Part shown: in pieces, positions 17,806 through 61,369 of the stretch
Position numbering within the stretch: position 1 is the first letter of the stretch
Layout of the letters: each line of letters starts with the position of its first letter
Source: Brevibacillus laterosporus DSM 25
GTDB lineage: Bacteria; Bacillota; Bacilli; Brevibacillales; Brevibacillaceae
Reading direction: 5' to 3'
DNA: 64,000 bases
NCBI RefSeq assembly: GCF_002706795.1
Contig: NZ_CP017705.1
Coordinates: forward strand, 1,072,001 to 1,136,000
Position numbers and translations under genes: made by a program
Notes under the pieces: model-generated
What the model was told of the DNA's origin: nothing
What the model saw: only the letters and a program-made list of their open reading frames with translations
Databases searched by the model: none

Positions 17806-17834
17806 TCTATACGACACGGTTTAACCTAAGTTAA
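17806..17834 (-). promoter_or_regulatory. Phage ECF-like promoter, copy 1
   Basis: TTAAC-18-TATAGA with invariant TCGTATAGA. It drives the 136-aa gene and probably the dut, acb2 and tmk unit. The -35 contains the TAA stop of the gene upstream (17833-17831). Confidence 0.8.
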
Positions 17835-18193
17835 GCGTGCTTGCTCAAGTTTTTTATGATGTCAAGCTTAGAGCTATACTCCGATTGATTAGGTGTATCC
17901 CTCTCGGATTCCCATGCAACACTCACGATCTCTCGTGATTTCAATTGCAAGGTTACTAGGACGTTTTTGTTTGAGAACTTCATCCGAGACTTCACAAGGA
18001 TACAACTCTTGTTTCCCTCGAAGATGTACTCTATGATGTCACCATTAGCCAAGGACTCCATCACATTAGCTCTCACTAGACCTCGGCTTAACATTCCTGA
18101 TAGACAATCAGTAGTAAAGGTAAAATTACCATCCACGAACCGCATGATAGCTTCTCTTTCTAACGGGGTTATGCTTGTGCATTCTTTCCGCAC
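17831..18193 (-). CDS. Hypothetical protein, DUF4258-like, 120 aa
   Basis: GTG 18193 is chosen: a perfect AAGGAGGTG ribosome site lies upstream, whereas the longer frame starts inside the phage promoter. The middle follows the outline of DUF4258 proteins (MESLANGDIIEYIFEG, then beta strands ending VSVAWES), a RelE-like fold found in small toxins and phage proteins. The resemblance is weak, so function is open. It is alone behind promoter copy 2. Confidence 0.65.
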   Translation of the reverse strand: MRKECTSITPLEREAIMRFVDGNFTFTTDCLSGMLSRGLVRANVMESLANGDIIEYIFEGNKSCILVKSRMKFSNKNVLVTLQLKSREIVSVAWESERDTPNQSEYSSKLDIIKNLSKHA

Positions 18194-18214
18194 TAATTTC
18201 ACCTCCTTAATTTC

Positions 18215-18243
18215 TCTATACGACATGAATAATAAGAAGTTAA
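18215..18243 (-). promoter_or_regulatory. Phage ECF-like promoter, copy 2
   Basis: TTAAC-18-TATAGA on the minus strand with invariant TCGTATAGA. It is directly followed by AAGGAGGTG and the GTG start of the 120-aa gene, giving a very short leader. Confidence 0.8.
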
Positions 18244-18277
18244 ATTGGGTATAAAGCTAATGTGGTACCACTGCTTT

Positions 18278-25264: not shown

Positions 25265-25564
25265 TCATCCCCCTAATGCTGTGAACTCTGTTCGGAACTC
25301 ACGAGCTTTCTCCTGTCGAGCTTCAAGAACCCTTACAGGTGGTGTAACCTCTCCAAGCTCGACCAATTTGCGGAACTGGCGAGTAATCGTCTCAGCAGGT
25401 GTAGACTTGCAAATCTCCGATATATCCTTCAGGTTATCGTATAGTACCCAGTAGGTAGATATAAGCTCGTTGTAATTCTCCTTAACTTCAGGGAAGGCTT
25501 TAACCATCTCTATGATGTTCTTACGGATATTGAAGAACTGGCTAACTTTTGGTTGCTCTTTCAT
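25265..25564 (-). CDS. Hypothetical helical protein, 99 aa
   Basis: First gene after promoter copy 3. Helical with a possible helix-turn-helix near ISEICKSTPAETITRQFRKLVELG, the outline of a winged-helix DNA-binding domain. No specific family recognised. Confidence 0.62.
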   Translation of the reverse strand: MKEQPKVSQFFNIRKNIIEMVKAFPEVKENYNELISTYWVLYDNLKDISEICKSTPAETITRQFRKLVELGEVTPPVRVLEARQEKAREFRTEFTALGG

Positions 25565-25605: not shown

Positions 25606-25634
25606 TCTATACGAACCGAGGTGGTGATTGTTAA
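25606..25634 (-). promoter_or_regulatory. Phage ECF-like promoter, copy 3
   Basis: TTAAC-18-TATAGA with invariant TCGTATAGA. It heads the long recombination and nrdJ operon. The -35 contains the stop codon of the 119-aa gene (25633-25631). Confidence 0.82.
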
Positions 25635-28385: not shown

Positions 28386-28580
28386 TCAAATTTCCTCATT
28401 TCTCTTCTCTCGGGTATATTGATCAAGCAGTTCGGCTTTTGTGATTCTGCCGCCGCCCGTGTACTTACACATGAAGTAAAAGTAGTCCACATAGTCCTTG
28501 GATTTGTAGACCCGCTCTATTAAAATGCGAACTTCAGGGTCAGAGTTCCTGACCCACACGCCGCTTTTGACTTGCATCAT
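28386..28580 (-). CDS. Hypothetical protein, 64 aa
   Basis: Begins within the last bases of the DNA polymerase gene and ends one base before the CYTH start. Aromatic central part (DYVDYFYFMCKYTGGG), then a charged helix. No family recognised. Confidence 0.6.
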   Translation of the reverse strand: MMQVKSGVWVRNSDPEVRILIERVYKSKDYVDYFYFMCKYTGGGRITKAELLDQYTREKRNEEI

Positions 28581-30817
28581 GCCGCATCCTCCTCCAAGAA
28601 CATAGAAAGATCATCCTCAGACATTTTTTGACCCCACTTCTTACCTACCTCGATGTCAGACTTTAATCCGCAATCGAGTGGAAGCGCGTTACACATGATG
28701 TCAGCAATTCTGCGAAGATTGTCCATACCAATGTCTTCGGGTACATCGAAGATGATCTCGTCATGCACCCACATCACGATTTTCGCGTCCAGTTCCTCTA
28801 GCAGAGGTTGGAGCTTAATCGAAGCAAGCTTAACCATGTCAGCAGAAGAACCTTGAATTACTGCGTTAATTCCCATTCGATGTCCACGACCGATGAGCCA
28901 CTTCTTGCCTGACTGCATCTCCTCGTAGACTCTGCGCTTGCGACCTAACATTGTCTCCGTATACTGAAGCTCATTCATCAGTTTGCGTTGTTCTGCCATC
29001 CATTTTAGAACTCCTGGGTAGGCATCGAAGTAACCCTTGATGTATTCGATTGCTTCCTCCTCGGTGATCTCTAAGGTCTCTGCTAACCCCTTTTCAGACA
29101 TTCCGTAGATAATACCGAAGTTAACTACCTTCGCATCCTTACGGAATTTCTCGTACTTAATACCCAGTTCGACATCCATTCGAATAGTCTCAGGGTCTTT
29201 GGTTCTGATCTTCTCTTCGTTGAATAGCTTACGAACATACTCAGCATCCATAAGCTTGACCTCTACGAGATTTCCGTCAGGGTCAAGGAACAGCTCCTTC
29301 ATACCACGGCGATACTCGAAGTCATCGTAAGTAACACTGTCATTGTTTCGATTCCACATCCCTACAGCGGTCATGCTGTGAACATCCAAGCAATCTCGGT
29401 AAATCTTCAACAAGGTCTCGTCTTGCGACACATGTGCAAGTACTCGGAGTTCTTGTTGCGAGAAGTCGATAGAAGCTAGGAGTCGTCCGTCATCAGCAAT
29501 AAAGGCGTTACGGATGAGTCCACCAACCTTAGCGGGTATTTGCTGAAGATTCGGGGTATTACAACTCATTCGCCCCGTCTTGGTTCCAACAGGGTTGAAT
29601 GACGTATGTACTCGACCGTTAACAAGGCTCTTAGGTAGCTTGTCAGCAAAGGCAGTAGTCAACTTAACCTTCTCACGAAACTCTAAGAGGAACCCTACCA
29701 CCTCATGTGCCTTCTTCAGCTTTTTGAGAGTTTTCTTGTCGGTGCTTGTTGGCTTGTCCTTATTGACCTTAGGAAGCCCTAGCTTTACATAGAGGGCTTC
29801 AGATAGCTGTACAGGGGAGTTAAGGTTGATCTCTCCCGTATAAGACCAAATCTTCTGTCTAAGAAGCTCAAGTTCGTTGTGTAAGTCCTTTGCAACTTTC
29901 TCTACTAGGTACTCACGATCAAGAAGAACCCCTGCTTGCTCTGCCTTCCATACGATGTCGAGAAATGGCATCTCTATATCGAAGAACAGATCGTATAATT
30001 TCTTGAGGTTCCCACGATTCAACGCCCGCCCCTGGAACTCAGCCATACGATAAGTAAGCTCGGTATCCTTAATGGCGTAGTAACCCGCTAAGCACCCAGT
30101 CCGAGTGTTAGGGTCAAGCTTGATCGGGATTTTATCGAACGTGACCTTACCGAACAGTGTGGAGAACTTATCTGCTTCTACTTTCAAGTAAAACGGTGCC
30201 ATATCTTTGAGTGCCTTCGACTGGTTCTCATCGAGCACAGCCTGACCGATCATAGTATCGAGCCAAGGGACTAGACGAATCCGCATCCAGTTCCATAAAA
30301 TGTGCATATCAAACTTAGCGTTGTGCAGAAGGAACTTTGTGCTTCTGTCTTCAAATATTGGGCGTAGCATGTCAGCTACAAGTTCTCGTGGTAAGCAAAT
30401 CTCCTCAACGTGTTTCAATGGAATGTAATATCCTCTGTGAGGTGCATACACGCTGATACCCACAATCTCGTCAGCAAACGGATTGACACCCATTGTCTCC
30501 GTATCCACCGCCACAACACTTTGGGTACGTAGCCAACTGCACATATCGTCCAGTTCCTCCATAGTCCAAACCATGTGGTAATAGTCAGGCAAGACTGTGT
30601 TGTTTGCCATCTCTGTAATCTGCTGTTCTTTCTTAGTGACCTTCTTAGCGGCTGACTTCTCCGTTACGCCCACCTTAGCACGAGACTTCTTTTTCTCAGT
30701 CTTGGCTTCACGGCTCTCAAGGAGTTCTGTAAGTTCTAGGGCACTTGTCTCCTCGATAGCATTTTTCTTGCGTGATGCTCTCTTACGCTTAGGTAATTCC
30801 ACCACTTCGAGATTCAC
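28577..30817 (-). CDS. DNA polymerase I family (family A) with 3'-5' exonuclease
   Basis: 746 aa. After a Lys/Arg/Glu-rich N-terminal extension (about 1-75), the exonuclease domain shows Asp105 and Glu107 in AVDTET, Asp170 in AKFD and Asp251 in IKDTEL. Polymerase motif A: ASIDFSQQELR (Asp451). Motif B: VVNFGIIYGMS. Motif C: VMWVHDEI (Asp686). No 5'-nuclease domain. A stretch of about 60 residues between motifs A and B is longer than usual for the family. It is the phage replicative polymerase. Confidence 0.95.
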   Translation of the reverse strand: MNLEVVELPKRKRASRKKNAIEETSALELTELLESREAKTEKKKSRAKVGVTEKSAAKKVTKKEQQITEMANNTVLPDYYHMVWTMEELDDMCSWLRTQSVVAVDTETMGVNPFADEIVGISVYAPHRGYYIPLKHVEEICLPRELVADMLRPIFEDRSTKFLLHNAKFDMHILWNWMRIRLVPWLDTMIGQAVLDENQSKALKDMAPFYLKVEADKFSTLFGKVTFDKIPIKLDPNTRTGCLAGYYAIKDTELTYRMAEFQGRALNRGNLKKLYDLFFDIEMPFLDIVWKAEQAGVLLDREYLVEKVAKDLHNELELLRQKIWSYTGEINLNSPVQLSEALYVKLGLPKVNKDKPTSTDKKTLKKLKKAHEVVGFLLEFREKVKLTTAFADKLPKSLVNGRVHTSFNPVGTKTGRMSCNTPNLQQIPAKVGGLIRNAFIADDGRLLASIDFSQQELRVLAHVSQDETLLKIYRDCLDVHSMTAVGMWNRNNDSVTYDDFEYRRGMKELFLDPDGNLVEVKLMDAEYVRKLFNEEKIRTKDPETIRMDVELGIKYEKFRKDAKVVNFGIIYGMSEKGLAETLEITEEEAIEYIKGYFDAYPGVLKWMAEQRKLMNELQYTETMLGRKRRVYEEMQSGKKWLIGRGHRMGINAVIQGSSADMVKLASIKLQPLLEELDAKIVMWVHDEIIFDVPEDIGMDNLRRIADIMCNALPLDCGLKSDIEVGKKWGQKMSEDDLSMFLEEDAA

Positions 30818-30838: not shown

Positions 30839-30867
30839 TCTATACGAAAAGAAAAGCACCCAGTTAA
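30839..30867 (-). promoter_or_regulatory. Phage ECF-like promoter, copy 4
   Basis: TTAAC-18-TATAGA with invariant TCGTATAGA, before the DNA polymerase gene. Its -35 lies in the loop of the terminator at 30853-30876. Confidence 0.85.
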
Positions 30868-30968: not shown

Positions 30969-30997
30969 TCTATACGACATGATCTGACCACAGTTAA
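30969..30997 (-). promoter_or_regulatory. Phage ECF-like promoter, copy 5
   Basis: TTAAC-18-TATAGA with invariant TCGTATAGA, immediately downstream of the terminator at 31001-31030. It drives the 19-codon ORF. Confidence 0.8.
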
Positions 30998-31030: not shown

Positions 31031-31185
31031 TCATTCCATTCGGGGAGTTCTATCCACTGAGCTACATCATACATTTCACCTAATTCAAACAGTTTCATAA
31101 ATTCCTGCTCCATCAGGTATTCCGTAATGATAATATCAGCGGTTAGGTCTTTATAGATGACCCTCTTCTTAGAAAGGAAAGTCAT
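31015..31185 (-). CDS. Hypothetical protein, 56 aa
   Basis: ATG 31185 lies inside the last codons of the SSB-like gene, so the two are coupled. Acidic and hydrophobic residues alternate (DLTADIIITEYLMEQEFMKLFELGE); no domain recognised. It could be an SSB partner or inhibitor, but no evidence supports either. Confidence 0.6.
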   Translation of the reverse strand: MTFLSKKRVIYKDLTADIIITEYLMEQEFMKLFELGEMYDVAQWIELPEWNEKIAK

Positions 31186-31771
31186 CGTTATTCTTGGAGC
31201 CGCCACCTTGGTTTCCGCTATTACTTACATCACCACTCGGAGCATCAGTAACATTACCAATAGTGTTCATCAATGCCAGTATTGCATCACGGGTCAGCGT
31301 TTGATCTTCAATCAAAGCTTCGATGTTCAAGCGTTCAACCTTCTCAGTAAATGGCTCAAGGTCACGAGCGAAGAACTGGTATTTCGTTTTCAGCTTCTCA
31401 CCTTGACGAGCGATCTTGAAGTCACGTTTCGTTAGATCACCGTATTCCTCAATTAGACCAAGCAACTGGGTACCCATAGTCTGGGATGCCTTGAGGATTT
31501 TAACCCTCTTATCAGTGTAGTCGTACACTTCCAAGTAGGACTTGAATCCAGGTTTATTACCGCTACCTTGCAACGGGTCTTCGTTGCGTGGTAGTGCCGT
31601 AATTGTTTTCCATTGACCGTTGATTTCTAACGTGTACTCCCAGATAGAGATAATCTCCTCAGCAGGAGTCAGGATACGAACTACAGCCGACTCATTAGGC
31701 ATAATTTTCAGCATAGATGTGGAGTTGTTTGCCGCGTCACGAATTGCACCAAGACCTTTTTGCATTGCCAT
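31169..31771 (-). CDS. Phage single-stranded DNA-binding protein
   Basis: 200 aa, first gene after promoter copy 6. The core has the character of phage SSB proteins, and the C-terminus is a Gly/Asn/Ser-rich linker ending DDFPF, the acidic tail that recruits replication partners in SSB proteins. It lies beside the polymerase and primase units. Confidence 0.75.
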   Translation of the reverse strand: MAMQKGLGAIRDAANNSTSMLKIMPNESAVVRILTPAEEIISIWEYTLEINGQWKTITALPRNEDPLQGSGNKPGFKSYLEVYDYTDKRVKILKASQTMGTQLLGLIEEYGDLTKRDFKIARQGEKLKTKYQFFARDLEPFTEKVERLNIEALIEDQTLTRDAILALMNTIGNVTDAPSGDVSNSGNQGGGSKNNDDFPF

Positions 31772-31828: not shown

Positions 31829-31857
31829 TCTATACGAGGTGTTCAGGAGATAATTAA
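31829..31857 (-). promoter_or_regulatory. Phage ECF-like promoter, copy 6
   Basis: TTAAT-18-TATAGA; the TCGTATAGA block is intact. It drives the SSB-like gene. Confidence 0.78.
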
Positions 31858-32519: not shown

Positions 32520-32520
32520 T

Positions 32521-38846: not shown

Positions 38847-38855
38847 AAGAGTTAA
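38827..38855 (-). promoter_or_regulatory. Phage ECF-like promoter, copy 8
   Basis: TTAAC-18-TATAGA with invariant TCGTATAGA. It drives the 107-aa gene through the ligase, RtcB and ThyX genes. Confidence 0.82.
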
Positions 38856-47966: not shown

Positions 47967-49733
47967 TTATATCACGACCTTTCTAATTTTAACTCCCTTG
48001 ATATTCCCCGAGCCATCGTACTCGAAGGCTTTCTTAACTCCTTGACCATCGTAAATCAATGTCTCTGTTTCAACACTACCATCAGTATTGTAGGTGAAGC
48101 AGGTTCTCTTTAAGAGCTGAGGAATAACATCTACAGAGTAGATTTCCTCTGACTCAATATCCCCGTTAGGAAAGTAGTTGTATATGATATCAAGCTCGAC
48201 TCCCGCCCCCTCAAGGAGCGCTAATCTCCTCTTAACATCGGTGTCGTCATAGGTAGCTCCTCCCTGCAAGACATAGTACATTGCACCATTGTTGATCTCA
48301 CGCAGGGTCTTCCCTTCAGAATCTCTTTGGTACTCGATACTCTTGCTTTGACCGTTACTTTCCAAGATCGACTGACGTTCAAGATTACCGTCAGCGTCAT
48401 AGAAGTACTCCACAGTACGGTTAATACCCCCGACTATTGTCTCAGTTTTGATCTTACCGTCAGGGTAGTAAGTGTAATCCTTGACGGAGGTCGTATTGAT
48501 GATCGAACCCCTGCCGATCACAGTCACCCGTGCTTCCTTCGGAACATCAAATGTAAAGCGGATTACGGTATCGCTATACTCGATGTAGTCATCACCTACG
48601 TCCATGCGGATACCGTCCAAAAACACCTCAGCAGAGTTGGAGCCGATCACGTACTTGGGGATGGTGAAGTCCCTCTGTGGCTTCAGCCTTACATCAGGTG
48701 GCGAGGTGAAATGGAATACTGACTGGTGCTCCATCGTTCCTCGGCTCTCCGCAAGTTCCAGGCGGCTCTGCATGTTATCGAGCCTGTCCTTCAACGCATC
48801 GTACACAACACCGTTCTTATCCTCGCGTGAGTCCTTTAGCTCGGTCTCCACCGCAGTCAGAGATGTTTCCAGGTCTGTGATCGCGGTTCCGTGGTCGCTG
48901 ATCACAGTGGCATGATCTGCAATCTCCGTTTCGAGATCGGTCACTCTCTGCTCAAGATTACTGAGGTCATTCTCCAATGAGCCTTTGGTAAGGAAATACC
49001 TGAAGTCCAATGGAGTCAGGGAAGTAGTAGGAGAAAGACCTACGTCTATCCCGCCGATGATGATGGCATCCTGTGGCTCTTGGCTGTCTGTGCTGTATGA
49101 ATAGGAGCCATTCTCGTGAAGGAAGATGTAGTAAGAAGTATTCGCCGCAATGTTCGGGACATCAAATGTCTGAGTGAACTTATCGACAATGACCTTGTTA
49201 ATGCTTGCCCGCCCTGCCTGAATCGTAACTCGAACACTGTTGGTCGCATCCTGATACACGGGGTTTGTAACACTGAGGTCGGTGATCGGTTGCTTGGCTA
49301 CTTCTTCGATATAATCCTCTAAGGTATCAAATCGGTCAGCAATGGACACTTTCGCTCCCCGCGCTCCCTTGATTTCAGTCTCAGCAAGACTAAGCCGCTT
49401 CTCGTGATCGGCTTTGCTTGTCTGAAGATTGGACACGTCCTCCGCAATGTTGAGAATATCCTTCTCCGCTGTCTCAATGTGGTTCGTGTTGGTAGCGACC
49501 TGAGTCTCAAGATCAGTAATCCTCTGTTCATGGTCGTTCACTGATGTCTTGTTGTCGTTCGCTGTTGTTTCGATCTCATCTATACGGTTACCAAGGCTTA
49601 GCTCAGACCCTCGGGCAACCTCCAACTCAGCAAGAGCAGAGTCGATCTCCTCATGTGTTCGGGTTCCAATGTCGGTCAGCTCTTTATGGCTCTTGAGTAA
49701 ATCCGTATGAGACTGGTTAATTCTTACAGACAT
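47967..49733 (-). CDS. Tail fibre-like coiled-coil protein with YD segments, 588 aa
   Basis: The first third is heptad-rich (repeated ITDLET, IETAEKD, LEQRVTDLETEI). A beta-rich centre follows, then C-terminal repeats of the form YYPDGKIKTE, YFYDADGNLE, YNYFPNGDIE, YNTDGSVETE and YDGSGNIKG, typical YD/RHS-like units. GGAGGT precedes the ATG. First gene after promoter copy 10. Likely a trimeric fibre. Confidence 0.82.
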   Translation of the reverse strand: MSVRINQSHTDLLKSHKELTDIGTRTHEEIDSALAELEVARGSELSLGNRIDEIETTANDNKTSVNDHEQRITDLETQVATNTNHIETAEKDILNIAEDVSNLQTSKADHEKRLSLAETEIKGARGAKVSIADRFDTLEDYIEEVAKQPITDLSVTNPVYQDATNSVRVTIQAGRASINKVIVDKFTQTFDVPNIAANTSYYIFLHENGSYSYSTDSQEPQDAIIIGGIDVGLSPTTSLTPLDFRYFLTKGSLENDLSNLEQRVTDLETEIADHATVISDHGTAITDLETSLTAVETELKDSREDKNGVVYDALKDRLDNMQSRLELAESRGTMEHQSVFHFTSPPDVRLKPQRDFTIPKYVIGSNSAEVFLDGIRMDVGDDYIEYSDTVIRFTFDVPKEARVTVIGRGSIINTTSVKDYTYYPDGKIKTETIVGGINRTVEYFYDADGNLERQSILESNGQSKSIEYQRDSEGKTLREINNGAMYYVLQGGATYDDTDVKRRLALLEGAGVELDIIYNYFPNGDIESEEIYSVDVIPQLLKRTCFTYNTDGSVETETLIYDGQGVKKAFEYDGSGNIKGVKIRKVVI

Positions 49734-49763: not shown

Positions 49764-49792
49764 TCTATACGACATGACTTCGACTATTTTAA
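49764..49792 (-). promoter_or_regulatory. Phage ECF-like promoter, copy 10
   Basis: TTAAA-18-TATAGA; the TCGTATAGA block is intact. Its -35 follows the stop of the 377-aa gene within a base or two. It drives the operon down to 42,891. Confidence 0.76.
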
Positions 49793-50943: not shown

Positions 50944-53900
50944 TTACGTGAATAACCATATGCGCTTACCTATCACGCACATCTTTGGACGATTCTTCCA
51001 TATTTCAAGTAAGCACTTAATCAGGGCTTCTATGCACTTGTCGCCCCCGCCACCTTCACAGTACGGGGTAACATGCACGTCTTCACATATCCAGTTAGTC
51101 AATTCCACCCAGTCTAGTTGAGCAAACTCCCAACTTCGCTCACCAGTCTCAATGTGGGTAGTGAACTTCCACTGGAATACATGTTTACCTTTCATAACAG
51201 GATATTTGAAGGTGTAATACCCTCCCTCTGTCGTAAATGTCTGAATCAAGTCACCATCTATGAAAAACTCAAGTTTCGAGTTGTACGGTTTTGGTATAAA
51301 CCTAAACCATTCGTAAGCCTTGAATTCATGCAATCGGAAGGTCGTGAAGTACTCTTTTCCTGTCCAAGTGCTGATAGTTCCCTTTTGGTCTGTTGTGATG
51401 ATTACCTTGTACTTAGTATAGGGCGTAGGGAGCAATTGGCTAACGCCAAAGGAGCTATACCCATCTCCGTAGTAAGTCTGGTCATACACGGATTGTCCGT
51501 CTTCCCTGAGGACTTGAACCCTCATACTGCTTCCGTCACACCCGCCCATCCAAATAGGCTTGTTATCCCACACCTCGAAGTGGGTTACCTCAGCCCATGA
51601 AGGGGGAACAGGCTCCTCATCGTGCATATCCATCTCGCCGCCCCATATCATAGCTCCGTCACCTGGGCATCCTTGATCTAATCTAACAACAACTTTGTAG
51701 TCTCTCTTTTGGTCAGAATCGTTTTTAATGGGTATCTCTACAAGCTCATCATCAAAACTGGTAACATACCATCTATCAATTCGATCTCCTTCCTCGTAGA
51801 CCTCAATAGCAATTCTAGTATTCCTACAAGGGTCTAAGCGGTTTTCGTAGAGTCTGATTACATCAAGCCACGCGTAGCTACCTCCGTCATCAAGATCAGT
51901 GTCAGGAAACGGGTCTTTCCACCACCCCGTGTCAGGGTGCGGAGAATCTCCTACACGGTACACGTTGCCATTTGCATCGGAGCAGTAAGCATCCCAGTAT
52001 TCTTGGAAGCCACCCTTACTTAGTGTAAATGCTCCCGCGTCAAGTCCTGAGGTTCCCTCAGCAACGCCAGTTCCTTTACTCAAGGTGTACGAAACACTGT
52101 ACGCATGACCTGGTTCCACATATCCATTTAGGTCTATCATGTACTCCGCGACCTCGCCCGCATTTCCGTAGTACTTATCAGAATAAACCACCATACCTGT
52201 GGTGAGGTCTGTAAGGCGAACCCATACATATGTTTCGTAGTCAACAAGAGGTCGATCTACAAGTTGCCCCCCGTTGACGCTATTTGGGTCACTTACCTTG
52301 AGAGTTAAATTCTTTATAGCGGTATACCAATTAAGTTTTGTATGAGGGTCTTGGTCTCTATCAGGTTTGGTATCCGTGACACCAATGCAAATCCAGTACC
52401 ACCCAGGAGACAGGTTCTTGGTGACTGAGAAGTGCTTGGCAGTAGTCCAATCAGTATCACCGAGATAACGATAATCCTTCTTATAGTTACCCCCATAGTT
52501 ATGGCGTATATTGTCGAGAATTATAGGGTTACTCCAATCAGAATCCTTGACTAACCATACACGCAACCGAGCACCCTGATATTCACTATTCTTCAAGTAG
52601 CTATAGAAATCGAAGTCTAGTTTGAACTTCCCTGTGGTATAGAACTTGTCGAATATCTTCCGTGTATATTTAGAATCCAATTCTTTTGGTGCCACAGTTT
52701 CATCGTTTGGTTTTTTGTTATTTAGCGGAGATAAGTCAGTAACAGGGAGACCGTAATATTTCCCACGGTAGACAGGTGTTTTATATTCGCCGTCATCTGC
52801 CATCATCTTTGTAGTGTCAATACTACGAAGACCATCCACCTTGGCGTATTTGATAGGGTAAACTTTCAGCTTCTCAAGGTAGTTGATCTCCCCGAAATAA
52901 GGGGCGTAGAAATCCCGAGTTATTACCCCGCCATCAAATTCAACACCGTGACCCACAGCCACTCCATTTCCATCGTAGTAAGTCTTGTTGCCGCCACTAC
53001 CCCATCTCCAAGCAGAGGTTCTATCAGAATATATTTCACCATCTGACTGCCCGTAGTCCAATTTACTGGTCGCATCCCCCTTTGGATAGCACCGCTCTCC
53101 CCAAAGGTCACTTCCAGAGGAACCAGAAGAACCGCCATTACCCGCACCGCTCTCGCTTCCAGAACCGCCATTACTACCTGGGGTGAACTTCGTTCCATCT
53201 TTGTAAACCCAACGGAAATCATGTCGTCCAGGTGGTAGTGGGTACATGCAGTTTGTTCCTACCGCTCCACCGTTAACATTCCCTGTCCAAACAGTAACCC
53301 CATCTACCTGAAGCTCAAGTGCTTCGCCTGGGTCAAATTTCCCACCGTACTGCCAGGTTATATATCCTGGGTTCCTCATTCTCGCTGAGAAGTTAGCTAT
53401 ATGAGTCTGATTATGACCTTGTGCCAACATAACACCATCCCCACCCGCGTGACCTGCTTCAACAGCCATGTCAACCCACTTCCAGTTACCTTCAAAACTT
53501 AGGGCAGGGTTATATCTATTGGGTTCATTAAAAAGTTCCTCAAACTCAAGAATGTCACGGCTTGCTCCCGTAATAGGGTCGTACCCGTCATCCATAGAAG
53601 GAAAGATTCTCATGTGCTCCTTGATAGTTACACTAGAGTGAGGGTTAAGTGTAATATCGTAGGTTATCTCATCCCCATCATTGGTGGTTTTCGCCCCACC
53701 ATCCGTTACACTCCAATCTCGGGTGATATCCACTGTACTCCCCATCGGAGACTCTACTGTATAGGTTTTTCCTTCTGACCCCTTCCCGTAGTAAAACGGT
53801 CTGTTAAAGTCGTAGGTGAATGGAGTCTCAGTTTGAGAATCAATAATGTAGAAGCTGATTGTGCTATAGCCCGCCTTCAATGGAATCTCAATTTCAGTCC

Positions 53901-55635
53901 CACTTCTATCACCTTTGCTATAGTGCACACGGTCTCCGTTGACCCTAACCTCAAATCTTTCCGTTGGTCTTAACTCATGCTCAAAACTAAATATGAACCA
54001 ACCATCATCTGGAAGATTAACAGAGGTACTTGCAACACTGCGCCCCTCCTCAGGTTCATCAAGTCTAAGCCAATCACCATGATTAACCCACGTTGGGTTT
54101 CCTGACATCGACCAACTGTACTCCCCGACACCTATACCAAAGTTGTAAGGCTCGTAGTGGTCGATCTCCCTAGGTGGACACAACATTTCTAGGGTTCCAG
54201 TCAAATCAACCTTACAGTTCTTACCCACAATGATCTCATAGGTGATCTGGGCGTCATCTTCCACTGTCTCAGATTGCTTACCGTCAAGTAACCAAGGGTA
54301 CCCGTGTTGGGATTCAGCGATACTCCCGTGTTCCCCGTATCCCGTCTGTGTCTTGCTCACGAATAGATCATCGAAGAAAATATCGTAATCTATATTGTCT
54401 TCAGGGTAGTCGTCAATACCAGTTTTGTAAGCGAATGAAATTTCACCATCACAGTTATTTTCTAATTCCATCGTCAGCGTCTTGGAACGGATGTTGTCAT
54501 TGATAACAAAGCCTTTGAAGTGCGCCTGAACAATGCTCTCTGAGGAGTACACAACCCACGGTTCTATTGCGTAAGTTTCTTCACCATGAACATCATAGTC
54601 TAATGGCACAGGTGGTTTACTTGTGTCTACGATCTCTACAACCTCGATGTCTTTAATATAAATGCCGTTGTGTTGCCAAACTTCAGGTCGCATTTTTCTA
54701 ATTAGCCAATCGAACTTGTACATCTGTCCTGGCTGTAGCGTAAACGCCACTTCTTTCCACCCTGTACTTTCGCTCCACTCCCCACCAACCTGCTGACCGT
54801 TAATGTAAAATAGCAAACCGTTCCCTCGTTTAGCACTTGCAAGGTACTTGAACCGTACCTGCCCATAACGCTTCACACGCCAGTTAAACGTAATCTTGGA
54901 GGAGTTACCAATTTCAAGTAATCCAAGGTCGAGCTTCAAAATCATCTCCGCACCCGACTGCTCGTTCTTCCCTACAGAGTGTACAGTTACCCACTCCTGG
55001 TCTTCCGTGGTAGACACATAGCGGAAGAAGTCAGGAAACTTGTGGGAAAACGGTACATCCTTCTTCATTAAGAACAGTGGAATCTCGTAAATTCTAGCAT
55101 CGAAATGGTTAAAGTAGTTTCCGCTATAGTGGTGATAGTAGGGGGCAGGGCACGTAGGTAGGGATATTCCATGATGACTTCCCCCTGGCTCCTCGGCGTT
55201 CTCAAGAATCTTGTAGATACAATCCCTAATCATTTGCAACACCCTCTGATATTGTGTCTTGTCAGGCGGCATTTGTTGTTGCACCCACCACTCAATCCTG
55301 CGGTACATATTCCATAATGCTTCACGGCACCTTACACTGGCATACCACGACTTGTCCCTTAGGTACTGCTCAATGATTTGGTCAATCGTATTCTCTAGCG
55401 CATCAAGCTGAACCGTCTGCCACCTTCCGATCTGACCATACCCTTGATCTCCAAGTATCGGATTGTTTTCCGCACCGTAACGATCTACTTCCGACCTAGG
55501 GGCGTTCGGGCTTTGTGGCAGGTGTTTGGGATGGTTAGGATTCCCTGTGTCGTAGTCTTCAGCGACTTTCGCATGCATGTTTGCGAACAATACACCTTTT
55601 TGAGACTTAGTAAATAATCCAAACGTATGTCCCAT
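50944..55635 (-). CDS. Giant multidomain structural protein, 1563 aa
   Basis: ATG 55635 is preferred to the GTG at 55650 by the GGTGAGGGG ribosome site. The protein carries repeated beta-sandwich modules with a shared design (a hydrophobic strand, LEFFIDGDLIQTF- or LELQVDGVTVWTG-like, then a PLPPGRHDFRW- or PVMKGKHVFQW-like strand), a Gly/Ser linker near residue 815, and a C-terminal helix with four cysteines. No enzyme motif. Likely a tail-side or adhesin-like component. Confidence 0.7.
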   Translation of the reverse strand: MGHTFGLFTKSQKGVLFANMHAKVAEDYDTGNPNHPKHLPQSPNAPRSEVDRYGAENNPILGDQGYGQIGRWQTVQLDALENTIDQIIEQYLRDKSWYASVRCREALWNMYRRIEWWVQQQMPPDKTQYQRVLQMIRDCIYKILENAEEPGGSHHGISLPTCPAPYYHHYSGNYFNHFDARIYEIPLFLMKKDVPFSHKFPDFFRYVSTTEDQEWVTVHSVGKNEQSGAEMILKLDLGLLEIGNSSKITFNWRVKRYGQVRFKYLASAKRGNGLLFYINGQQVGGEWSESTGWKEVAFTLQPGQMYKFDWLIRKMRPEVWQHNGIYIKDIEVVEIVDTSKPPVPLDYDVHGEETYAIEPWVVYSSESIVQAHFKGFVINDNIRSKTLTMELENNCDGEISFAYKTGIDDYPEDNIDYDIFFDDLFVSKTQTGYGEHGSIAESQHGYPWLLDGKQSETVEDDAQITYEIIVGKNCKVDLTGTLEMLCPPREIDHYEPYNFGIGVGEYSWSMSGNPTWVNHGDWLRLDEPEEGRSVASTSVNLPDDGWFIFSFEHELRPTERFEVRVNGDRVHYSKGDRSGTEIEIPLKAGYSTISFYIIDSQTETPFTYDFNRPFYYGKGSEGKTYTVESPMGSTVDITRDWSVTDGGAKTTNDGDEITYDITLNPHSSVTIKEHMRIFPSMDDGYDPITGASRDILEFEELFNEPNRYNPALSFEGNWKWVDMAVEAGHAGGDGVMLAQGHNQTHIANFSARMRNPGYITWQYGGKFDPGEALELQVDGVTVWTGNVNGGAVGTNCMYPLPPGRHDFRWVYKDGTKFTPGSNGGSGSESGAGNGGSSGSSGSDLWGERCYPKGDATSKLDYGQSDGEIYSDRTSAWRWGSGGNKTYYDGNGVAVGHGVEFDGGVITRDFYAPYFGEINYLEKLKVYPIKYAKVDGLRSIDTTKMMADDGEYKTPVYRGKYYGLPVTDLSPLNNKKPNDETVAPKELDSKYTRKIFDKFYTTGKFKLDFDFYSYLKNSEYQGARLRVWLVKDSDWSNPIILDNIRHNYGGNYKKDYRYLGDTDWTTAKHFSVTKNLSPGWYWICIGVTDTKPDRDQDPHTKLNWYTAIKNLTLKVSDPNSVNGGQLVDRPLVDYETYVWVRLTDLTTGMVVYSDKYYGNAGEVAEYMIDLNGYVEPGHAYSVSYTLSKGTGVAEGTSGLDAGAFTLSKGGFQEYWDAYCSDANGNVYRVGDSPHPDTGWWKDPFPDTDLDDGGSYAWLDVIRLYENRLDPCRNTRIAIEVYEEGDRIDRWYVTSFDDELVEIPIKNDSDQKRDYKVVVRLDQGCPGDGAMIWGGEMDMHDEEPVPPSWAEVTHFEVWDNKPIWMGGCDGSSMRVQVLREDGQSVYDQTYYGDGYSSFGVSQLLPTPYTKYKVIITTDQKGTISTWTGKEYFTTFRLHEFKAYEWFRFIPKPYNSKLEFFIDGDLIQTFTTEGGYYTFKYPVMKGKHVFQWKFTTHIETGERSWEFAQLDWVELTNWICEDVHVTPYCEGGGGDKCIEALIKCLLEIWKNRPKMCVIGKRIWLFT

Positions 55636-55654: not shown

Positions 55655-55683
55655 TCTATACGAAAAACAGAGCACCGAGTTAA
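55655..55683 (-). promoter_or_regulatory. Phage ECF-like promoter, copy 11
   Basis: TTAAC-18-TATAGA with invariant TCGTATAGA, before the 1563-aa gene. The stop codon of the 1864-aa gene (55682-55680) is part of the -35. Confidence 0.85.
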
Positions 55684-55690
55684 TCGGTGC
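55672..55690 (-). terminator. Terminator whose loop holds the -35 of promoter copy 11
   Basis: GCACCGA and TCGGTGC arms with the loop exactly TTAAC, followed by TCTGTTTTT on the minus strand. Same design as the element at 30853. Confidence 0.75.
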
Positions 55691-58600
55691 CCGTCAAATC
55701 GTATTGAAGTTTTGAATCAGTATAGATTTGGATTCTACCATCCATGACCGACACCGATAGCTTGTACCACTTGTCTTTCTCCCACTTAAATGGTTGCATG
55801 GGGGAACCAATTGGAGTAGGGTTGCCACCGACCACCTTGTATAACTGCATAGGAACTCTCATACCAAGGCTATTGTCGGGGTCTCCTCCGTGTACCATGA
55901 ACATCCAGTAGTTGTTCTGATCGTAGTACTTAAAGATGATTCCCGCACCCTCCCCTTCATTCTCTGTATCTACCTTGAAGTCGATAGAAAACTTGTATTT
56001 ATCGGATAGGAAGTTGTTTCTATACCAACCACTAACCATAGGTGTGTCACTCTTAGAATAGAACTTGCCTATTAATCTATCACGTTCCCACGAACCGCTA
56101 CCAAACTCCATCCAGTCATCAGTCTGAGATAGTTCCAACGCATCCATGTCCTTAGAGTAAGGGTAGTATACGTTGAACGGGTCATCAGGGTCATAGTCTT
56201 CGGGAACTCCGAACCCCCCCTCCCAGTCTTCAGGGTTCATTCCTTGATCGAGCAAGTCGTTGGAGTAGTCATAGATCAACCCTTGCCCCATTGTATCCAT
56301 CATAGGTAGATACCCTTCAGCAGGCTGATCGCGGAAAGCTAAGTGCTCATCAGTTTGCAAGAAGCTGTCTCGCGGCTCCATCTTCGCTTCATGGTAGATC
56401 TCCATTAGATGCGCTGTTCTCTCGGGCAGGAAAGCAAAGAGTTGTTCCAGATACTCAGCCCGTGCTTCAGGACGTTCTGCAAAGATAAACCCCGTAATTA
56501 CATGAGCACAACGCTCCTCAAAAGATGCTACCAAGGATTCAGGGTCTACTATCTCTGACAACCTAGCATTAGCTGTTCCGACTGGAAGCGATCTTTCAAC
56601 GTAAGATTCTCTATCCTCTTTATGAGCCAACGAGTAGTCATTCTCAGCGTAACCAACTCTGCTCAGATGAGTAGCAAGTGAGTATTCATCACTTGTGTAC
56701 CCTGCATCTGTCAACTTCTTACCGATTATCTCTCCGTCACCCACAACGAATCCTCTATCAGGAATCTTTCTTCCGTATGTTAGCTCATCATCCACGTAGC
56801 CTATTCGTTGTATTGAGATACCATAAAAATCCCCCTCTACATCTCCGTACCTCTCCTTGACAACATTACCTTCAATTTCATGCAGTTGAGCACTTCGATC
56901 TGATTTACTTGCGAATATAATGTCTTCGTCAAGCCTTGCATTCCTTAACTTAACTACATTCGACTCCCCTTCGTGCATAAGACCTTCTCGAATTTCCGTG
57001 CCACCCGTAAGATCACCCTCGATATAAGCACCCCTCATACCTTTATAAGAGCATATGTTCTCGATTAACTGAAAGTACCTAAGACCTTTGCCACCAAATA
57101 ACATCCCTTCATCAATTGAACCATTTCTGAGCTTTAATACATCATCAATAGTTTCATGAAGGTGGGAATCCCTAACATCCTTTCTAGCAAACAACTCATC
57201 CTGGATGTCTGCTTCTCTGCATTCCTTGCTTACAACGAGTGAGAAGGGTAATTCTGCATCCCTGACACCTTTAAACGCGGCAAGAGTATTATGAAGGAAC
57301 GTATCTCTAACGCCTTTATACGCAAATAAATTCTCCTCTTCGATAGTTCCGTACTTAACTGGGGTGCCACCAAGTGGCAACGAAGAGTCAAGGTAACCAT
57401 ATTGTGGTTTATCTGCAACAAGGTTTTCCTCAAGCTCCCCTTGCTTCTCTTTACTACTTTCTTCGCTCTCATGAAGGCATGAGTCTTTAGGGTTCTTGGT
57501 AGCAAACAAGGTTTCATATAGGTAGGAATCTTTAACTCTCTTATCGCCCACTAAGGTGTCCTCAATCGTGACCGATTCTTTCAACCCTTTTACCGCGAAG
57601 ATGGTCTTATCTCCGAAGTTAAAGGAGTTTTTTGGAAGCTTATTACCAAACAAGTACTCGGAAATGGTCTCTGCTACCTTCTCACCTTTGATGCCCTCCA
57701 ATAACAACTTGGTAACCGTATCCTTAGCACCTTTCACCCCGAACAGCCCTTCGTTGTTTTCTACCTCATGGAGGTGGGCACCTTTGGACAACTTAGTGGC
57801 TACTGTTTCTTTGACGATGATGGAGGGATGAACTAATTTATCTGCTACAACTTCAATTTGAATTTCAGAGTCCTTAGAGCTTTTATCAGCGTACACTTCG
57901 CATGCATCTAGGAATGACAGCCTTTGCCCAGGGACAGCGAATAGGGTGTCGTCACTTACGGTTCCGTGCCGATCTCCCCTGACTGCTTCATTCATACTAT
58001 CTTCAATGAATGATTGCTGAGCTTTACTGGTACCTATGGTGTACTCATCGTTGATGTGTAATTGTCTTAGGTTAGCTGATCCAAGAGTGTACTCATCACT
58101 CGTAGAACCAACCCTATCCCGAGCTGTTCCGATAGAATATTCATCCCTAAGAAACGTCTGTCTAAGTTGAAGTATTGCAAGAGGATGCTCGATGTCAATA
58201 ATACTTTGTTGTGGTTTTAATGCTCCGATGGAGTAATCCTCGTTAATGTACAGCTCCCTGTTCTTCGCCGTACCTATAGAATACTTATCACTAAGGTGCA
58301 TCTGACGAGATAATGACTTACCTAAGATGTAATCTTCGCTCAGATACATATTGCGCATGTTAGGTGTTCCTAGATTGTACTCCTCATGAAGGATTCCTGT
58401 GCGATCGCGATCACGGGGTATACTACCCATTACAAACTCAATATGAAGTTCCCCTTCACGACTTTCATTAGAACCCATAGCATACTCATCTGATGTGTAC
58501 CCGCCGCGTTCGTACTTACTACCCATAGCGTATTCTTCTGATGTAATCCCGCCGCGCTCACCCTTACTTCCCATATACTCAGGGTCATCAGGGAAAAGTC

Positions 58601-61274
58601 CTCTGTCAGTGGGTAGATGTCCTTGATAATCTTCAATCTGAATGATTGCTGGTCGTGAACTATAATCTGCACCGTAAATGACCTCAGTAATCTCTCCGTG
58701 CAAAGTCTCTTTTGTCTTAGTTCCCTCGAAGTATTCGTTTACTAGGTAGGACTCCTTTACGCCCTTTTCAGCTACGGTAAGACTCTCGTCAATGTCACCG
58801 TCTAGGGTTGTCTTAGAAGCTTGCAGTTGGTCATCGGCATAGTCGCCATTCAAGGACTCCTTTACACCCTCTAAGTTCAGCGTAATAATACCTGATTTCG
58901 TACTGTCCTTAGAGCCTGTTAGGATACCACTATCTATCAGAGCATCAATACGCTTCTTCACCCCGCCAAGAAAGTCATTATCCAAGTATGCAGGTGCCCC
59001 AGCATTTTGCACAGCTTCGATCATCATTTCCATGATAACAGCAGGGTTATCCTGAAGCAGTTCACCCACGATCATATCCTCATCGAGGTATCCTTGGTAC
59101 TCTTTATTGCCAAGCCATCCGCCGCCCTCTAACTGATCTAGTAAAGGGTCACGTATTGTCGTAGGTCTTCCGATCTCCCTAATTGATCGAAGGATAGTCT
59201 CTAAATTCATTCGCTTAGGTGCCCTGACAAACTCTAAAGGCTTATTAGCTAAGTGCATGTCCTTCTGAACATGGTTCTTATCATAGGTGTTCGTAGTATG
59301 CAGAATCGTAGGTCGTACTGTTTCCTTATCAGCAAGGTAATCCTCCAGTAACCACAAGCCATGCTCAAACTCCCTGTCTGCGGAAGGCATCTCTGCTGTT
59401 TCAAGGTCGAAGGCACTTGTTCTTTCAGCACCACTATCTACCTTAGGCAGAAGCAGACTCCTAGGCTCTGTCCTACCCTCATAGAACTCTTCCTCAATAT
59501 AGGCTTCAACCTTACTTACACGCTCCCCAAGAGCATACTTACTGAGTACGTCTATGGCTTCGGTAAGCACTCTCTTAGCCAGTGGTTTCTCCTGACTTAC
59601 ACATCCCGCAAACTTACTGACCCTTCTGGACTCCTGCAAGTCTCTGAAAACAAATCCATATTCAGTGCTATCTCGGTACGCTTGCTGAGCTTCCTCTCTA
59701 TCAACTACCCCTCGTACCACCGCTATTCGATGAGCGGTTGGTCTATCCCGCTCAACGTACATACTCTCAACGAAGATTCGCTGTGCAGGTGTAAGAGTAT
59801 CAATCAGTTGCATCTGCTCAGTAATGTCCCGCACCGCCCATGGCAATGTTCGCTCTACATGCACTAGAGTATCAATATCTCTGTGGGCAAGAATGATTCC
59901 CGACTCTGTTACAGTAGGGTTCTTGTCAATAATTCTATGGGCATGAATAGGGTGCCATAAAATATCACTGGGACGGAGTATAGACTCGTAACGGTGCTCT
60001 ACACGAACACCGCCGACAAGCTTATTGTGCCTATGGATTTGATCTTTGGTGTTCTCCCGAACCGCCCGCATTTCTTTAATCAGAAGCGCTGGGTATCTCC
60101 TTTCCTTCAGCTTTGCTAGGACATTATGATGGGTTGTAAGCTCATGGGCGATAACACGGCGGGCTAACTCTCCATCAGAAATGAGCATCTTCTCCTCGAA
60201 ATCTCTTAACGCTTGAACGACATCCCCTGTCGCTGATCCACCAAAGGTATCTTTCCTTGCCGCCACACTCAACTTCTTTAAGACTTCCAATCTTGCGCCA
60301 TTATCTATCCGCGTACCTATAGAAAATGAATGTTCGACAATGCCATGGTTGTCAGTGACTATGATCCCTGTAATAGTTGCTTTTTGGACTGTCGCGTGTT
60401 TATCGCTGACACGGATACCTAGAAGGTCTTGGTACAGTAGCTCAACATCATGCCGTGTGACACGTTCAGCCTTGATGGTCTCGCTTCTTTCGGTGTCCCT
60501 CAGGTAGTTCACAACAGCTTCTAATAGTGGGGCGTTTTCAGAGGAATGACCAACAAGGCGCTCAACCTCGGCGTAAACCCCTGCCAAGTCCAAGTCGGGT
60601 TGATTGTCCCTTACCGAGTCCACGAGTTGACTAATCACCAATTCGTATTCACTATCATCTATCTCAGCACTATCTGCGTAGTCAGCGACCATTCCGAACT
60701 CATTTTCTCTGAAGCTGATCTTACTAGGGTCAATTTTTCCGAGATTCTGAACTAACCTGCGGGTAAGTCCTAGATTACGAACGATCTTCAGTTCCTTGTC
60801 GTTGTCCACCCGCCAACTTTCTCCCATGTCAGCATCAAGTGATGCGTCCTTCAGGAAGTTGGGTCTATGGGCTTTAGGTTGCTCATTTAATTCAAGAGCT
60901 TCAATCAGTGCCGTTCTCTCGGCTTCAAACGAAAACTCCATTATCTTACCTATATTATTGAAAGTAGAACCTTCTGATTTCTCGTGCATTACCCCCGTTT
61001 TTGACTGCTTCCCATCACCTAGCAGGATGAACCCTTCCTCGGATTCCGTGTCCTTACGAATGGCTTCGACAAGATCGTGGTTCATACCCTGGGAGATAGA
61101 TCGAGCAATATGGAAATCAAGCATAAGGACACTAGGATAGCGACTGTAAGGAATGTAAATAAACCGATATTCTTCGCTCCTGCTACCTGTAGTCCCAACG
61201 GTGAATAGGTAACCGTGCTGAGTGGTCGTGTAATCTATTACAGTAAAATCATACTGGTTTACTACTCGGTTCAC
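55680..61274 (-). CDS. Giant repeat-containing structural protein, 1864 aa
   Basis: GTG 61274 follows AAGGGGGCGG. The N-terminal half is mostly charged and of unknown fold. From about residue 890 to 1650 the protein is a run of 16-residue repeats. The C-terminal 130 residues (SGWYRNNFLSDKYKFSIDF, GAGIIFKYYDQNNYWMFMVHG, DGRIQIYTDSKLQYDL) resemble a concanavalin-A-like lectin/glucanase domain that seems to lack its last strands. It is probably a long tail fibre or baseplate protein. Confidence 0.75.
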   Translation of the reverse strand: MNRVVNQYDFTVIDYTTTQHGYLFTVGTTGSRSEEYRFIYIPYSRYPSVLMLDFHIARSISQGMNHDLVEAIRKDTESEEGFILLGDGKQSKTGVMHEKSEGSTFNNIGKIMEFSFEAERTALIEALELNEQPKAHRPNFLKDASLDADMGESWRVDNDKELKIVRNLGLTRRLVQNLGKIDPSKISFRENEFGMVADYADSAEIDDSEYELVISQLVDSVRDNQPDLDLAGVYAEVERLVGHSSENAPLLEAVVNYLRDTERSETIKAERVTRHDVELLYQDLLGIRVSDKHATVQKATITGIIVTDNHGIVEHSFSIGTRIDNGARLEVLKKLSVAARKDTFGGSATGDVVQALRDFEEKMLISDGELARRVIAHELTTHHNVLAKLKERRYPALLIKEMRAVRENTKDQIHRHNKLVGGVRVEHRYESILRPSDILWHPIHAHRIIDKNPTVTESGIILAHRDIDTLVHVERTLPWAVRDITEQMQLIDTLTPAQRIFVESMYVERDRPTAHRIAVVRGVVDREEAQQAYRDSTEYGFVFRDLQESRRVSKFAGCVSQEKPLAKRVLTEAIDVLSKYALGERVSKVEAYIEEEFYEGRTEPRSLLLPKVDSGAERTSAFDLETAEMPSADREFEHGLWLLEDYLADKETVRPTILHTTNTYDKNHVQKDMHLANKPLEFVRAPKRMNLETILRSIREIGRPTTIRDPLLDQLEGGGWLGNKEYQGYLDEDMIVGELLQDNPAVIMEMMIEAVQNAGAPAYLDNDFLGGVKKRIDALIDSGILTGSKDSTKSGIITLNLEGVKESLNGDYADDQLQASKTTLDGDIDESLTVAEKGVKESYLVNEYFEGTKTKETLHGEITEVIYGADYSSRPAIIQIEDYQGHLPTDRGLFPDDPEYMGSKGERGGITSEEYAMGSKYERGGYTSDEYAMGSNESREGELHIEFVMGSIPRDRDRTGILHEEYNLGTPNMRNMYLSEDYILGKSLSRQMHLSDKYSIGTAKNRELYINEDYSIGALKPQQSIIDIEHPLAILQLRQTFLRDEYSIGTARDRVGSTSDEYTLGSANLRQLHINDEYTIGTSKAQQSFIEDSMNEAVRGDRHGTVSDDTLFAVPGQRLSFLDACEVYADKSSKDSEIQIEVVADKLVHPSIIVKETVATKLSKGAHLHEVENNEGLFGVKGAKDTVTKLLLEGIKGEKVAETISEYLFGNKLPKNSFNFGDKTIFAVKGLKESVTIEDTLVGDKRVKDSYLYETLFATKNPKDSCLHESEESSKEKQGELEENLVADKPQYGYLDSSLPLGGTPVKYGTIEEENLFAYKGVRDTFLHNTLAAFKGVRDAELPFSLVVSKECREADIQDELFARKDVRDSHLHETIDDVLKLRNGSIDEGMLFGGKGLRYFQLIENICSYKGMRGAYIEGDLTGGTEIREGLMHEGESNVVKLRNARLDEDIIFASKSDRSAQLHEIEGNVVKERYGDVEGDFYGISIQRIGYVDDELTYGRKIPDRGFVVGDGEIIGKKLTDAGYTSDEYSLATHLSRVGYAENDYSLAHKEDRESYVERSLPVGTANARLSEIVDPESLVASFEERCAHVITGFIFAERPEARAEYLEQLFAFLPERTAHLMEIYHEAKMEPRDSFLQTDEHLAFRDQPAEGYLPMMDTMGQGLIYDYSNDLLDQGMNPEDWEGGFGVPEDYDPDDPFNVYYPYSKDMDALELSQTDDWMEFGSGSWERDRLIGKFYSKSDTPMVSGWYRNNFLSDKYKFSIDFKVDTENEGEGAGIIFKYYDQNNYWMFMVHGGDPDNSLGMRVPMQLYKVVGGNPTPIGSPMQPFKWEKDKWYKLSVSVMDGRIQIYTDSKLQYDLTGTD
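56300..58600 (-). repeat. Region coding for tandem 16-residue repeats
   Basis: About 45 degenerate units of 48 bases. The clearest copies read G-S/T-x-x-x-R-x-x-x-L/I-x-D/E-E-Y-x-I/L, for example GTAKNRELYINEDYSI; later copies read K-G-x-R-D-x-x-L. DNA identity between units is low, so this is an old protein repeat and not a recent duplication. Confidence 0.75.
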
Positions 61275-61293
61275 GTCACCGCCCCCTTGTATT

Positions 61294-61332
61294 AAAAAAG
61301 GGAACTCCTGAGAGGAGTCTCAGAAAGTTCCC
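61294..61332 (-). terminator. Intrinsic terminator immediately after promoter copy 12
   Basis: GGGAACT/AGTTCCC arms with an inner TGAGA/TCTCA stem and six T on the minus strand. It begins within about two bases of the expected start site and ends before the 1864-aa gene. Confidence 0.82.
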
Positions 61333-61340
61333 TCACTGAA

Positions 61341-61369
61341 TCTATACGATTCAGCTATCATACAGTTTA
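61341..61369 (-). promoter_or_regulatory. Phage ECF-like promoter, copy 12
   Basis: TAAAC-18-TATAGA with the TCGTATAGA block intact. A 7-bp palindrome CTGAATC/GATTCAG is centred on the -10. It precedes the 1864-aa gene. Confidence 0.75.

Follow-up and report, generated by a model that had tools for sequence, protein, structure and literature searches.

Twenty near-identical putative promoters in a Brevibacillus laterosporus prophage, probably read by a phage-encoded sigma factor

A prophage in the chromosome of Brevibacillus laterosporus DSM 25 carries 20 near-identical putative start signals that are probably read by a sigma factor encoded by the virus itself. The best-supported reading of these sites is a family of phage promoters with ECF-like geometry, given their position and direction relative to genes, a motif that is kept while spacers diverge, a T at −1 and a purine at +1 of the predicted transcripts, and the presence of a phage-encoded two-domain sigma factor. 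On sequence comparison this protein, P0001, acting with the host core RNA polymerase, is the likely reader of the sites.

The window, a 64 000-nucleotide stretch, is part of a single contig of 5.40 Mb. The first-pass annotation had listed twelve minus-strand sites here, and a scan of the window found the exact word TCGTATAGA at all twelve positions, against 0.33 copies expected (0 of 100 shuffles reached 12). TTAAC-N15-TCGTATAGA is exact at nine of them, and the three variants that had been named, TTAAT (31829), TTAAA (49764) and TAAAC (61341), are also as described. The host part of the window holds no copy at 0 or 1 mismatch, and both the replication and the tail blocks are served, with sites before the DNA polymerase A gene and a tail-block gene; here too the earlier account stands.

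All twelve sites are treated as putative minus-strand promoters. The first (17806–17834, TTAAC) lies 49 nt upstream of gene 17346–17756, which heads a minus-strand gene row containing a second sigma factor, P0002. It is followed by TTAAC sites at 18215–18243 (21 nt upstream of gene 17831–18193), 25606–25634 (41 nt upstream of gene 25265–25564) and 30839–30867 (21 nt upstream of the DNA polymerase A gene, 28577–30817, identified with Pfam). For the TTAAC site at 30969–30997 the nearest called gene is at 151 nt and a 19-codon ORF begins nearby. The TTAAT site at 31829–31857 is immediately 3′ of the P0001 gene and 57 nt upstream of an SSB-like gene (31169–31771), while the TTAAC site at 33813–33841 is 185 nt upstream of the primase-sigma gene pair, an arrangement that makes autoregulation possible. 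Further TTAAC sites lie at 38827–38855 (40 nt upstream of gene 38463–38786) and at 41928–41956, 24 nt upstream of a DnaD-like gene (40863–41903) with homologues of the helicase loader and helicase of Brevibacillus phage Jenst 3′ of it. The last three are at 49764–49792 (TTAAA; 30 nt upstream of tail-block gene 47967–49733), 55655–55683 (TTAAC; 19 nt upstream of gene 50944–55635) and 61341–61369 (TAAAC; 66 nt upstream of gene 55680–61274). By eye, two −35 elements lie in the loops of terminator-like hairpins: the one at 30839 between GCACCC/GGGTGC arms with a T-rich spacer after them, and the one at 55655 between GCACCGA/TCGGTGC arms with TGTTTTT after them. As TTAAC forms the hairpin loop ahead of a T-rich stretch, promoter and upstream terminator seem to overlap at these two sites.

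One prophage spans approximately window coordinates 11,300 to 126,770 (end about 126,769), past the window edge, with a serine recombinase gene at its left end (11341–12837, minus strand; Pfam Resolvase 1.7e-17, Recombinase 5.8e-14). It interrupts the gene for a YtfJ-type sporulation protein, of which residues from about 33 remain at the left end and 1–39 at the right (window approx. 10911–11297 and 126691–126885, the latter contig 1198691–1198885). The split, at approximately codons 33–39, was judged against an intact 149-residue copy in the related genome G037 (Pfam Spore_YtfJ 1e-28). Because the gene is divided between the prophage ends, excision could restore it, and restoration of a sporulation gene on prophage excision is known for SPbeta and spsM.

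The set of twelve sites is real but incomplete: a search for TTAAC-N16-CGTATAGA across the whole prophage, with up to one mismatch and CGTATA held fixed, gave 20, of which eight are beyond the window, namely 64929 (reading TATATA) and seven from 90903 onward. Fourteen are on the minus strand (thirteen from 17806 to 64929, and 126709) and six on the plus strand (90903–118886). Site 126709 is 44 nt upstream of a minus-strand gene that is followed by holin and amidase genes. The annotation had stated that all sites precede transcription units in the gene direction. This holds for 16 of the 20, which are 10–70 nt 5′ of a same-strand gene start, as are 3.8% of random positions (the range was fixed after the distances were seen, and gene starts are from our own gene calls), but the plus-strand site 90903 opposes the surrounding genes; the four sites outside this range are 151, 185, 458 and 1,277 nt from a gene start.

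A search for the best 5+5 dyad with gaps of 12–20 nt returned TTAAC-N16-CGTAT in the prophage (16 copies against 0.23 expected), and the same dyad ranks top in the related record G039 (20 against 0.20 expected). Outside the searched letters, 17 of 20 sites share G29 and all 20 have T34 and purine 35, so that the motif is longer than first claimed, with approximately 10 nt more conserved downstream (GnAAGTR). The T and purine at +34/+35 look like the putative −1/+1 of a transcript, 7 nt after TATAGA; with purine 35 as +1, TTAAC would occupy −35 to −31 and TATAGA −12 to −7. When the CGTATA condition was removed, each of the 14 TTAAC-N18-TATAG places in the prophage still showed CG before TATAG and the T-purine pair at +34/+35. 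Conversely, 18 of the 22 CGTATAGA words in the prophage have TTAAC, with up to one mismatch, at the proper distance. TTAAC-N16-CGTATA occurs in 15 of the 20 sites and one-letter −35 variants in five (CGTATA being fixed in the search). Promoters of the ECF type have an AAC-containing −35, a gap of 16–17 nt and a −10 of CGTA or CGAC, as in the Bacillus ECF promoters (TGAAAC-N16-CGTA), and the prophage sites show these features.

The first-pass annotation had noticed no copy in the host part, and outside mobile elements the motif is not in excess in the host. A scan of the chromosome with TTAAC-N15-TCGTATAGA gave 24 matches at up to one mismatch, of which 21 fall within the prophage or a single further element (2.6775–2.6800 Mb, three copies), while the remaining three are scattered. 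The remark that the host lacks copies is thus nearly true chromosome-wide, since the sole other locus is itself a mobile element. Allowing up to two mismatches raised the count to 68, but the reversed pattern then gave 87, and weaker matches are therefore not in excess. Within the prophage, no minus-strand site scoring 12 or more was found in the 27-kb minus-strand block 92115–64957, which by homology to Jenst encodes terminase, portal, head and tape measure proteins; one regulator therefore does not account for every late gene. No second repeated dyad that might be a target of P0002 stood out in the 5+5 search of the prophage, and a CTAA word before late genes was rejected as a candidate signal (16 of 34 late genes, against 16 of 54 other phage genes and 5 of 17 host genes).

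Two plus-strand sites have unusual surroundings. The site at 90903–91000 (L011) faces away from its neighbours and has a strong, terminator-like hairpin within approximately 30 nt of the predicted start, with a similar arrangement in G039; site and hairpin possibly specify a small phage RNA. The site at 104438–104740 (L012 6438–6740) is followed by a partly conserved leader of approximately 160 nt, which matches no RNA family in Rfam, and then by an ORF of 31 codons that has a G039 counterpart.

Two sigma factors were found in the prophage. P0001, the favoured reader (31959–32534, minus strand), is a 191-residue protein with sigma2 and sigma4 domains (Pfam Sigma70_r2 2.9e-9 at residues 43–90, r4 4.6e-7 at 145–182) and no region 3 match at E 0.1 in Pfam, which is the domain composition of an ECF sigma factor. 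It scores 66.6 bits against TIGR02937 sigma70-ECF (cut-off 42.9), which P0002 also passes at 57.6, and 16.8 against Pfam Sigma70_ECF, under the cut-off of 21.1; among solved chains its best match is a SigH (3mzy) rather than an ECF. In the AlphaFold model, which is of mediocre quality (mean pLDDT 69), a low-confidence linker at 94–136 joins two helical parts. The gene is flanked by those for the SSB-like protein and a DNA primase (32521–33627, minus strand; PHROG 47 DNA primase 2e-37), the latter directly 5′ of it. P0002 (13163–13975, minus strand), the second candidate, is a 270-residue SigB/F/G-like sigma factor with profile matches to r2, r3 and r4, placed in the minus-strand gene row behind site 17806 and ahead of the serine recombinase.

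In the mechanism that we predict, timing included, the sites would be the promoters of one prophage-wide transcription programme. P0001 on the host core RNA polymerase would bind TTAAC (−35 to −31) and CGTATAGA (−14 to −7) across a 16-nt gap, and transcription would start at the purine 7 nt past TATAGA. Once made, P0001 would raise its own level, since its gene lies behind the primase gene with such a promoter upstream, and it would turn on the genes for replication, nucleotide metabolism, the tail and lysis as well as the gene row that includes P0002.

The motif recurs in related phages and prophages, and pattern scans show it conserved where spacers have diverged. An exact scan of IMG/VR gave, among the matches listed, at least two motif-rich records: G040, which has spacers identical to the window's and is apparently the same phage, and G039, with diverged spacers. 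These two were followed, together with the records re-found through the sigma factor. A search for P0001 homologues gave 29 loci, 12 of them viral and 17 in genomes; Paenibacillus accounts for 13 of the genome loci (73–83% identity). Of these 29 loci, 27 have at least one site (up to two mismatches, CGTATA fixed), and none matches the reversed pattern. The set is partly redundant: L179 represents the window's phage, L180 has its sites in common with L191, and L181 with L201. No site was found in L185, whose length is only 2 kb, or in L206, the G037 locus. Each of the 11 Brevibacillus tail loci with a match has a single TTAAT-type site, placed 5′ of the sigma gene. Exact TTAAC-N16-CGTATAGA is present in every one of the 13 Paenibacillus genomes in which a P0001 homologue was returned, at 2–17 copies each (59 against 4 reversed), and among 40 genomes around G042 the sigma factor is found in one and the pattern in seven (18 copies against 3 reversed).

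Across 39 genomes of the order to which the window's genome belongs, a P0001-type sigma factor is found in 10 and exact TTAAC-N15-TCGTATAGA in 15, with 36 copies against 1 reversed. Eight of these 15 also hold the sigma factor: the window's genome (G000) and seven with one exact copy 12–13 kb away. In G020, which has a TTAAT site, and in G037 the sigma factor is present and the exact copy absent. Close P0002 homologues are found in exactly the 10 genomes of the order that have P0001, and they also accompany P0001 in each of the 13 from Paenibacillus; as both proteins co-occur in every genome tested, presence and absence cannot pick one over the other. G039 and G054 were considered as informative cases lacking P0002 and set aside, as they look like trimmed records and G041, which has the sites of G039, does encode P0002. 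Eight genomes (G005, G006, G007, G012, G013, G020, G023 and G024) carry tail-gene elements with both sigma factors, which are candidates for domesticated tail particles under the same control; no terminase was seen by eye in the two that were read in context (G007 and G020).

G037 offers a different −35. Its homologues of P0001 and P0002 are 52% and 63% identical, respectively, to the prophage proteins, and its genome has no TTAAC-N16-CGTATAGA. Instead, TGGAT-N16-CGTATA(A/G)G occurs four times in the 3.3 kb around the P0001-type gene, out of five genome-wide, and three of the four sites are preceded by T; across the remaining 38 genomes of the order there are five such words against three reversed. 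The site directly behind the P0001-type gene is kept in the window, G037 and Jenst. The letters ISQMSVSRIM of P0002, taken by eye as its recognition helix, are identical in G020 (TTAAT) and G037 (TGGAT), whereas the presumed recognition helix of P0001 differs between them. This argument is weak, since the P0001 helix of the window (TTAAC) is likewise not that of G020 (TTAAT) and the sequences are few.

The same promoters could be read by P0002 (13163–13975) rather than P0001, which we regard as unlikely though the most serious alternative. P0002 accompanies P0001 in all 10 genomes of the same order and all 13 from Paenibacillus, and Jenst, with a motif of its own, carries two P0002-like sigma factors. 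Set against this, sigma factors of the P0002 class are known for other −35/−10 sequences, the presumed recognition helix of P0002 is unchanged between G020 and G037 where the −35 is not, and no site adjoins its gene, with approximately 3.8 kb to the closest one upstream. P0001 remains the favoured reader.

The other alternatives are much less probable. Ordinary SigA promoters (TTAACn-N17-TATAGA) turned on by a phage activator would account for the spacing, since TTAAC plus one base, 17 bases and TATAGA suits SigA, but the letters depart uniformly from the SigA consensus (TTGACA/TATAAT), and CG, which SigA does not require, precedes all 14 TTAAC-N18-TATAG places. Moreover, the motif is not in excess in the host outside mobile elements, and no activator box is conserved 5′ of the −35 (at most 0.33 bit in columns −20 to −2); we consider this reading improbable. 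Less probable again is that the phage and small elements exploit a motif recognized by one of the host's own sigma factors, as might be proposed from small elements that carry it in genomes without a P0001 homologue (14 searched, best match up to 43.7 bits). Among orphan loci read in context, copies in or beside apparently ordinary genes were found only at L238, L239 and L242, which score at chance (−1.6, 1.5 and 6.4) and were dropped; weak copies are not in excess in the window's chromosome; and the motif variant tracks the element, not the host, with G034 (TTAAC) and G035 (TGGAT) in the same genus. A non-promoter repeat acting at the protein or RNA level, such as a replication or packaging site, might be suspected from sites that run into ribosome-binding sites and from the long conserved leader behind 104438. 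Given the direction of the sites and their distance to genes, and two blocks at fixed spacing with a free spacer, of which one is changed and the other kept in G037 and L244, it is barely credible. A phage promoter family, probably read by P0001, is the reading that we favour.

Phage-encoded sigma factors are well established in the lytic phage SPO1, whose middle and late sigma factors redirect the host RNA polymerase to phage promoters; our proposal resembles this in its use of phage-encoded sigma factors and differs in that SPO1 is lytic. SPbeta, a large Bacillus-type prophage, uses the single-chain RNA polymerase YonO for its own late transcription, and by eye no candidate for such an enzyme was seen among the prophage proteins read. 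A comparable promoter set has already been reported for the Brevibacillus phages Jenst and SecTim467 (PMC4909266), and the TTAAC set of the prophage joins that kind. The available text of that paper describes a repeated motif in Jenst (19 copies) and SecTim467 (20 copies) as a likely phage-sigma promoter, upstream of replication and nucleotide genes and absent from the host genome scanned there, reports the same motif in Bacillus phage Basilisk, and lists three sigma genes, with the reader of the motif not named. As far as that text goes, these phages resemble the prophage in having approximately 20 copies, several phage sigma factors and promoter-like spacing.

Our own search of Jenst re-found its motif as the top dyad, CAACT-N16-CGACC (13 against 0.16 expected), with 17 sites under a looser pattern. 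The consensus letters differ, GCAACT-N16-CGACC in Jenst and TTAAC-N16-CGTATAGA in the prophage, and none of the 17 Jenst sites is in the structural block, whereas tail and lysis genes of the prophage have sites. The phages are nonetheless related: 46 of 178 Jenst gene calls match prophage proteins, the terminase at 51% identity. As with P0001, a sigma-24-annotated gene lies behind the Jenst primase gene, with one site following it and another preceding a DnaD-like gene as in the prophage; the sigma-24 protein gives no BLAST match to P0001 and a profile comparison probability of 84. The whole record of EZ-2018a (CP027117) has a weak dyad, GCAAC-N16-CCACT (6 against 0.15 expected), which may be that phage's version of the promoter. 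Xpf of the Bacillus subtilis prophage PBSX is described in the available part of PMC10141391 as a group IV sigma-like positive control factor and, by that description only, is like P0001 a two-domain (sigma2, sigma4) prophage factor. For the Basilisk-like phages, the available part of PMC6145125 describes one sigma70-type protein and shows no promoter set. A literature search with the literal CGTATAGA gave, among the matches listed, none on phage promoters by title, and searches for satellite or helper-sigma promoters and for Paenibacillus prophage sigma motifs gave only broad reviews by title.

Where a genome has the motif but no P0001 homologue, the copies mostly adjoin serine recombinases. 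In 14 such genomes (13 with an exact copy, and G035), the best sigma profile match is at most 43.7 bits and host SigH-like by length. We read 18 motif loci: 12 with a recombinase, including L014 from the window's genome, plus L237, L238, L239, L242, L245 and L246 (a locus in G030 was left out, its spacer being the same as in G029). The 12 recombinase loci hold 24 sites no more than 2.6 kb from a serine-recombinase gene; the same recombinase test was negative for all 20 control stretches, which were drawn from seven motif-bearing genomes. The recombinases were confirmed with Pfam in L156, L160, L014, L163 and L236 and recognized in the others by an N-terminal pattern. L237 (score 42.7) shows no serine recombinase in the 13 kb read, and L245 and L246 lack one as motif loci, though their genomes do have a sigma prophage. 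One further candidate arose at L162, where the pair at 5849–6812 (a region 4 protein and an HTH_16 protein) presumably resembles the two-subunit sigma factor SigO/RsoA; it was set aside, as no such pair was noticed at other motif loci.

The clearest unit is 3,058 bp long and 87.5% identical between G018 and G034 (L156 7676–10733; L157 7607–10664). It encodes a 512-residue serine recombinase, a 60-residue ORF and, in G018, a protein matching PF05144, a replication domain of the G2P type; its counterpart in G034, as called, has no Pfam match. A TTAAC-type site lies 20–21 nt 5′ of the recombinase gene and a second site faces the opposite direction. The homologous units in G037 and G035 (L243 approx. 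4601–6554; L244 approx. 4078–6436) each carry three TGGAT-N16-CGTAT(A/C/G)AG sites, including one in the corresponding position 5′ of the recombinase gene, which is fragmented in G035 (for TGGAT-N16-CGTAT, shortened after the sites were seen, about 0.02 copies are expected per locus). Between the element versions the recombinase-promoter spacer is kept at 12 of 16 positions and the −35 at only 2 of 5. The TGGAT version is the type found at G037's own sigma module, while G035 has no P0001 homologue above weak background. The element in the window's genome (2677525–2679974; L014 8525–10974) has three motif copies, one each before the gene of a 508-residue serine recombinase, before a short divergent ORF and before a DnaD-like gene, and is possibly a satellite of the window's prophage. 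Together these sequences suggest that the small elements are satellites keyed to a phage sigma factor. We propose tentatively, as somewhat short of an even chance, that they use phage-sigma promoters for recombinase and divergent genes, that a phage or domesticated tail element encoding this sigma factor would, on arriving or being induced, directly trigger their excision, and that their −35 has shifted with the resident sigma factor.

If so, mobile elements may sense a phage through its sigma factor. More generally, the TTAAC, TGGAT and, more distantly, GCAAC types would form a natural series of related sigma factors and promoter sets that spans phages, tail elements and small recombinase elements, in which sigma-promoter co-evolution becomes directly testable with native parts. 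The pairing is also a candidate system for phage-specific gene expression in Brevibacillus and Paenibacillus.

A second kind of small unit was seen at eight loci (L158, L159, L160, L161, L162, L236, L240 and L241), with a shorter serine recombinase and two motif copies per unit. These usually include an IS110-type transposase (confirmed with Pfam in L160 only) and, where seen, small genes of the MNHPVKE or MNRLPLD type, and several adjoin what by eye are RHS-like gene ends.
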